Translations under genes and position numbers: made by a program
Part shown: piece by piece, positions 22,466 through 45,174 of the stretch
Layout: each line of letters begins with the position of its first letter
Numbering within the stretch: the stretch's first letter is position 1
Notes under the pieces: generated by a model
The model's input: only the letters and a program-made list of their open reading frames with translations
The model's database searches: none
Told to the model about the DNA's origin: nothing
Origin: Halorubrum sp. CBA1229
GTDB lineage: Archaea > Halobacteriota > Halobacteria > Halobacteriales > Haloferacaceae
Length of the DNA stretch: 64,000 nt
Direction of reading: 5' to 3'
NCBI RefSeq assembly: GCF_003721435.2
Contig: NZ_CP054585.1
Coordinates: forward strand, 1,922,001 to 1,986,000

Positions 22466-22799
22466 ATTTATAAATGAACGAGGCGGTCGGCGCGTGCCTC
22501 CGAGGCCGCCCCGCGGCCGAGGAGCGCGCGCGAGGGACGCGGCGACCGGAGGGAGCCGCGAGGCTGGGGAGGGGTGAGGCGCGGTTGCGGTGCGGGGTGG
22601 GACTCAAAGGGGCAGCCCGAGGCGGGCGCAGGCGACGAAAGCAGCGTGTCGCTACGCGCCACGGGCAGCCGGCGGCGGAGCCGCCGGCGACACCGCAGCG
22701 AAGGGGCGATAGCGACTGAGCGAGGAGCGCAGCAAGCGTGCGCCCGCCTCGCGGCTGGGGCTTTGGGAGTGTTCGCCGCCGTCTCGTTCTCAACTATCT
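22466..22799 (-). repeat. Dispersed structured intergenic element, copy R2 (interrupted)
   Basis: Read on the minus strand it matches R1: H1 arms at 22739-22757 and 22613-22630, the CCTTTGAGTCCC string, CACCCCTCCCCAGCCTCG and the GC-rich terminal hairpin, ending at ATTTATAAAT (22466-22475). The H1 loop carries an extra perfect hairpin, GCCGGCGGC/GCCGCCGGC, at about 22668-22688. The copy breaks off at 22799, where the AT-rich island starts, and resumes at 25449 with TTATAAG and the second box. It is therefore split by an insertion. Confidence 0.8.
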
Positions 22800-44790: not shown

Positions 44791-45115
44791 TTTATAAATA
44801 ACAGCGGTGGCGCGCCTGCGAGCGGCCGCCACCGGCGGCCGCGAGCCAGCCCGCGAGGGAGTCGGACCGGCGCAGCCGCGCCGGTCCGACGAGGCTGGGG
44901 AGGGGTGAGGTGCGGTGCTGTGCGGTCGGGTGGGATTCAAAGGGGCAGTCGCGAGGACGGCGCAGGCGACCCAAGCACTGGAGGGAGTGAGCGAAGCGAA
45001 CGACCGAAGCGCGCAGCGAGCGTGCGCCGTCCTCGCGGCTGGGGCTTTGGAGGTGTTTGCCGTCGAGTCGGTATCGGTCGTTTATAAACGAGCGGCTGGG
45101 GCGTTAGAGGCGTTT
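44791..45115 (-). repeat. Dispersed structured intergenic element, copy R3
   Basis: This fills the gap 44717-45174. Read on the minus strand it follows R1: second box AGCGGCTGGGGC at 45091, TTTATAAA at 45081-45088, H1 arms at 45023-45041 and 44946-44964, then TTTGAATCCC and CACCCCTCCCCAGCC, a perfect 13-base hairpin with a 4-base loop at 44861-44890 (H2), a GCGGCCGCC/GGCGGCCGC hairpin at 44823-44843 (H3), and GCGCGCCACCGCTGTTATTTATAAA ending at 44791 in two parts. It is upstream of pdaD and downstream of pan. Confidence 0.85.
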
Positions 45116-45174
45116 AACACCGCTCAACCGCCAGAAATCCCGCAGAACTCGAAACCGACTGCCGGTCCGTAGTC

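Follow-up and report, generated by a model that had tools for sequence, protein, structure and literature searches.

What kind of element keeps its hairpins in place and changes their sequence from copy to copy? The question is raised by a repeat present four times (R1 to R4) in a 64,000-nt stretch of Halorubrum sp. CBA1229 (the window), which lies on a 3.22-Mb contig of a 3.58-Mb genome. The original prediction held that the hairpins are fixed in position and variable in sequence, as in structured RNA or hairpin-recognised DNA. We describe the element from R3, which is encoded on the + strand. Its 258-nt core (44804..45061; best-fold RNA energy -155.2 kcal/mol, z -4.8) is preceded by a TTTATAAAT box (44791..44799). 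The first hairpin, H1 (H3 of the original prediction), reads GCGGCCGCC-loop-GGCGGCCGC (44822..44842) and has GA/GA and a covarying 4-bp step alongside. An invariant linker, CGAGGGA (44854..44860), lies 5' of H2 (44861..44890), which is, exactly as described before, a perfect 13-bp stem with a 4-nt loop (AGCC); the sequence of this stem differs among copies and orthologues. H2 is followed by a near-invariant linker that is the signature of the family (GAGGCTGGGGAGGGGTGAGG; 44891..44910) and by a long third hairpin (CAAAG-GGG-CAGTCGCGAGG... / ...CCTCGCGGCTG-GGG-CTTTG; 44938..45049). In the apical hairpin of the latter, GG-GA-GT-GA-GC-(GAA)-GC-GA-AC-GA-CC (44983..45005), GA/GA alternates with 2-bp steps. 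Downstream is a 3' tail unit (TTTATAA...GCGGCTGGGGC...; 45081..45121), a repeat spaced at 57 bp in many copies; the tail of R3 includes one additional, degraded unit. Tail units of this kind, which contain TTTATAA or CGTATA, are found in tandem elsewhere too (e.g., G000:C1:1261901, 1261958, and 1262015), up to six of them within 800 nt of a copy start, and some tails lack a core.

The other cores in the window are R1 (L027; 4328..4600, - strand), R2 (22483..22777, + strand), and R4 (L013; 51502..51764, - strand), and 42 extracted cores range from 240 to 341 nt. The H2 of R4 is GTCGGCCGG/CCGGCCGAC, in agreement with the original prediction. The GCGGC/GCCGC stem reported for R2 is present but, contrary to the original prediction, is not really weak: a GA/GA step and then CC/GG extend it, and R1 shows a similar alternation (GCGGT, GA, GT, GA, GGGGC). 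At H1, the motif GCGGCC-loop-GGCCGC, claimed for all four copies, occurs in three; in R2 its position is taken by GGCCGC-loop-GCGGCC, with the GA flanks retained.

The third hairpin of R2 also holds a nested hairpin insert. Double hairpins of ~50 bp (...TCTGGCAGCCGGC... and relatives) are nested in R2 and in other copies (e.g., L060, L062, L067, L091, L163, L164), often between CGAGG and GA before H2. Element neighbourhoods hold 335 of 430 double-hairpin matches (duplicates retained), yet they account for only 4.8% of the scanned sequence. A third nested unit (like GAGCACGGAAGTCGCAGCCCGCG...GAGCAGGAACGTCTTCCG), with conserved parts, was seen inside L033, L164, L178, and L209.

Covariation among 23 copies bears out the claim of fixed positions and variable sequences, far beyond the four copies on which it had been based. 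The alignment (A2) comprises 23 of the 42 extracted cores, since copies with nested inserts, copies with a second H2 register, and a few others were left out before counting; the structure was named by the analyst. Within it, 97.7% of 610 cells are paired, a proportion that falls to 81.2% when the 3' letters are re-dealt and to at most 49.0% when partners are slid by 1–3 columns. Double changes affect 17 of 27 pairs, and the covariation score is 0.406 versus 0.125 after shuffling; none of 500 shuffles matched the observed alignment on any of five measures. Linkers are near-invariant across copies, and stems are variable yet paired. Compensatory changes in conserved helices, the membership test for structured non-coding RNA, are thus present. 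Selection would hold pairing rather than sequence.

The same holds for larger sets. A wider sample comprised 139 unique copies drawn from Halorubrum sp. CBA1229 and its congeners. Good H2 pairing, defined as at least 6 Watson-Crick pairs out of 8 with both H2 registers allowed (the second class starts one base later), is seen in 127 of them, with 25 distinct 8-nt 5' arms. Conservation of the hairpin's position therefore survives this sample, and the outcome that would have refuted the original prediction, copies devoid of a hairpin at this place, is not what it shows; the copies that fail the parser number twelve, several of them with inserts or odd registers. H2 arms fit their own partners better than those of other copies (0.688 versus 0.532 shuffled, over 10 nt), a value that understates pairing because a single register was used throughout. 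The GA/GA apical frame of the third hairpin is present in 118 of 139 copies, with all six pairs Watson-Crick or G.U in 95 of these (683 of 708 pair cells). Its 76 distinct versions are paired at 0.958 versus 0.730 for shuffles on the same frames, the observed value being somewhat raised because the parser picks the best-scoring frame per copy. The inner 2-bp steps of this hairpin are mostly GC, GT, or AC. GA/GA also occurs beneath H1 and within many versions of H2, so that fixed GA/GA steps are interspersed with covarying 2-bp steps. The GA pairs of such steps would be sheared. GCGAAGC forms a very stable hairpin in DNA, where GA/GA with GAA loops is stable too. In L038 and L040, CCC replaces GGG in CAAAGGGGCAG, and the 3x3 GGG/GGG internal loop becomes a perfect stem.

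Which strand is folded? In each of the 42 copies, the + strand of the element folds more stably than the opposite strand, whether RNA or DNA parameters are used (for R3, -155.2 versus -126.2 kcal/mol). Taken together, H1, H2, and the stem beneath H1 contain 20 G.T cells and a single A.C cell, although some of the former are shared among related copies, so that they represent fewer than 20 events. The outer helix of the third hairpin counts against a single-strand reading, with 15 G.T and 28 A.C cells; a single position contributes 19 of the A.C cells, and without it the counts are 15 and 9. Given the excess of G.T over A.C and the consistently greater stability of the + strand, one single strand (RNA or ssDNA), and not a cruciform, seems to be selected. 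The suggestion of structured RNA or hairpin-recognised DNA is thereby supported and can be narrowed to the + strand of the element, on the basis of the 42 folds, the GA/GA steps, and the ratio of 20 to 1.

The element is abundant. In this genome the linker pattern GAGGYTGGGGAGGNNTGAGG occurs 94 times without a mismatch (the reversed control, never), always on the chromosome and not once on the second contig (G000:C2, 364 kb, a tenth of the genome), and BLAST of R3 against its own genome returned at least 40 strong copies. In two relatives, 55 of 55 and 53 of 53 core matches are on the largest replicon. All 52 Halorubrum genomes carry the pattern, with 7 to 184 copies each and no matches for any control. 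Beyond the genus its distribution is patchy: in a class-wide draw, exact matches were found in 57 of 292 genomes and 11 of 77 genera, 22 of the 57 matching genomes falling outside Halorubrum. With E ≤1e-4 as the criterion, a covariance model gave candidate hits in 58 of the 195 genomes sampled from the order. At 13 non-Halorubrum loci inspected by eye, the H2-side linkers recur, some of them altered, the stem sequences are unrelated, and a part resembling the third hairpin (AAAGGGG...GGGGCTTT) is present in only some. One haloarchaeon of another family has a small tandem array of the linker pattern, with six overlapping matches at a spacing of 16 bp (G151:C3:123163-123262). A search of named records with the second linker gave at least 120 stretches, which among the matches listed belong to Halorubrum or uncultured archaea, and named cultured Halorubrum strains are among the carriers. 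Among 72,556 plasmid records, 4 match R3; phage records yielded no match. Rfam gave no match in the window (best E in the element, 3), and thus no family above the gathering threshold. We found no description of the element in the searchable literature, in which subscription papers are mostly out of reach, nor in the accessible portions of PMC5018182, PMC12306157, and PMC3119063.

Comparison of orthologous sites indicates how the element evolves. R3 lies beside a gene for the proteasome-activating nucleotidase (NCBIfam Pan2, above cut-off); its other neighbour has a weak likeness, below cut-off, to pyruvoyl-dependent arginine decarboxylase. The element at this site is common to many species: 22 same-genus loci comprise 11 full copies, 3 truncated copies, 5 loci where a short gap lacks the element, and 3 unreadable cases. 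In two of the truncated copies (L171 and L179), the segment between repeated TGGGG strings is lost. The H2 sequence is different in all 11 full copies. Of its 9 outer positions, 7 to 9 are paired in ten of these copies and 6 in the remaining one, which carries a nested insert. A syntenic stretch in another genome (G004) has both R2 and R4, the latter cut, together with a 3' remnant of R1; it lacks R3 and carries one additional copy that is missing from Halorubrum sp. CBA1229. Sites that are present or absent and remnants that are 3'-only or 3'-truncated were thus both seen; in the one clear present/absent pair, where ends and target duplication were examined, the right flank differs. Within this genome, H1 is about as similar between copies of the same H2 type (0.710) as otherwise (0.702). 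Among 138 copies from many species the values are 0.694 and 0.654, so reassortment is incomplete. We conclude from these sequence comparisons that hairpins appear to be exchanged as modules between copies, which could occur where the identical linkers allow recombination or gene conversion.

The data describe a non-coding, dispersed element of ~260 nt that is greatly amplified in Halorubrum and nearly always intergenic (5 of 134 cores lie inside a called gene, counted over other Halorubrum loci and G003, G004, and G006). On balance, we favor reading it as an ancient mobile element, non-autonomous and passed on mostly by vertical inheritance. Its fold as a single strand would be recognised in trans, and its hairpins would be exchanged from one copy to another. 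The present/absent sites, the dispersal, the remnants, and the nested small hairpins fit a non-autonomous mobile origin. The covariation and the strand asymmetry agree with a single-strand fold as the form that is recognised. Such an element would have spread by way of a single strand (RNA or ssDNA) whose fold is bound by a trans-acting protein, and would at present be mainly decaying and inherited vertically. No mobilising protein was identified, and the 12 of 16 TnpB loci of this genome that were compared share no ends with the element, both of which count against a mobile reading.

The confinement of the element to the main replicon and its presence at shared positions would also suit a host function, in which domesticated copies would serve as a functional chromosomal RNA or DNA site, for example by forming a barrier where genes converge or by helping to organise the chromosome. 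This we regard as unlikely, even though all core matches of the three genomes above (94, 55, and 53) are on the largest replicon and every Halorubrum genome carries the element. Gene context also speaks in its favor. Using gap classes from a simple gene caller (GC by codon position) rather than annotation, we found that 47 of 98 gaps with an element are convergent versus 83 of 511 without, a strong enrichment, and that 12 of 98 are divergent versus 139 of 511. Within tandem gaps, however, the element runs along the genes in 19 cases and against them in 21, showing no orientation preference, and neither the range of 7 to 184 copies among relatives nor the lack of R3 at 5 of 22 same-genus loci sits well with a host role. 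Nor does the chromosome show strand domains: the strands of 91 copies gave p 0.54 in both tests (segment borders chosen via a Cdc6/Orc1 search), which leaves replication-linked orientation and targeting of the lagging strand unsupported.

Two more specific roles in transcription were also considered. The hairpins had been proposed as possible processing sites or terminators; a terminator role is unlikely, because no T-run follows H2 (GAGGCTGGGG) or the third hairpin (GAGGTGTTTG), because orientation in tandem gaps is indifferent, and because no Rfam family is matched. In 80 of 156 copies the upstream 70 nt contain the motif TTWAWA, compared with 4 of 156 in a control segment. The spacing of this TTWAWA/TTTATAA box is variable (2 to 61 nt, most commonly about 8-11 nt), and at the commonest spacing the usual TATA-to-start distance would put the RNA start inside the first stem; a simple promoter at the box therefore fits poorly.

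It is similarly doubtful that the element is an ssDNA element of the IS200/IS605 kind (a PATE-like or REP-like derivative), for which a Y1 transposase would supply mobility and the hairpins would act as DNA recognition signals. Its non-coding nature, its internal palindromes, the lack of visible terminal inverted repeats, and the stability in DNA of GA/GA with GAA loops would all suit such an element. So would the small hairpin elements nested in palindromes, as in the PATEs and SMR-A of the accessible parts of PMC3119063. Parentage by TnpB/IS605 elements was rejected, however, since the matches in the 12 TnpB loci compared (of 16) proved to be a tail remnant and an ordinary copy that happens to lie close by, and the lack of strand domains is a further point against it. 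Finally, a purely mutational pattern, in which template switching at hairpins makes and homogenises GC-rich palindromes in the absence of selection on folding, is very improbable. Many stems are indeed perfect and GC-rich, and the CCC of L038 and L040 makes a perfect stem of an internal loop, but the strand asymmetry argues otherwise and strand-blind repair would erase the GA/GA mismatches that persist between covarying steps.

Returning to the mobile-element reading, we tentatively raise the possibility of an undescribed haloarchaeal class of mobile elements, which would move as a strand-specifically folded nucleic acid of 2-bp steps and GA/GA pairs and in which helices would be interchangeable cassettes. 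A pool of hairpins might then be shuffled among about a hundred chromosomal sites, with orthologues sharing linkers and not stems. Its thousands of copies, with fixed linkers and replaced helices, amount to a natural experiment in which the maintenance of structure without sequence can be measured. The element would also account for the GAGCGAAGCGAACGA-like strings that are common in these genomes, at least within its own copies, as GA/GA hairpins, and the cultured Halorubrum carriers make transcription, folding, and mobility open to experiment.

How does the element compare with known systems? REP, BIME, and REPIN sequences are high-copy intergenic palindromes of Bacteria, with REPs of 20-40 bp. 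The high copy number and intergenic palindromes are shared, but the element is ~260 nt long with multi-helix covariation, and its size and architecture differ from a REP/BIME palindromic unit. The omega-RNAs associated with IS200/IS605 elements in Archaea are likewise structured RNAs linked to mobile DNA, whereas the copies described here generally do not adjoin tnpB and share no ends with the 12 TnpB loci compared. A MITE was rejected, as the element is without terminal inverted repeats: the inverted repeats of the region are internal hairpins, and TTTATAA near both ends is self-palindromic and not an inverted repeat of the element.

The nearest known kind is the palindrome-associated transposable elements (PATEs) of Haloquadratum walsbyi. 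According to the accessible parts of their description, these are non-coding, occur in many divergent copies without terminal inverted repeats, undergo internal deletions, and have palindromes that are near-terminal, resemble IS605-type ends, and are targeted by small repeats (PMC3119063). As far as that text goes, the element shares with PATEs a haloarchaeal host, divergent multicopy non-coding sequences, palindromes, the lack of terminal inverted repeats, internal deletions, and palindrome-targeting small repeats; at its core lengths it is too short to code and has no transposase. It differs in that covarying helices span the whole element and in that no likeness to TnpB-element ends was found. 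We do not file it with the PATEs, because likeness to IS605-type ends, their testable defining feature, is absent among the 12 of 16 TnpB loci compared. A parallel extends to the nested units. The SMR-A repeats of Haloquadratum, about 110 bp long with inverted termini, insert into the palindromes of another mobile element (PMC3119063, accessible parts), and the double hairpins described here, though about half that length, also sit in the palindromes of what is probably a mobile element.
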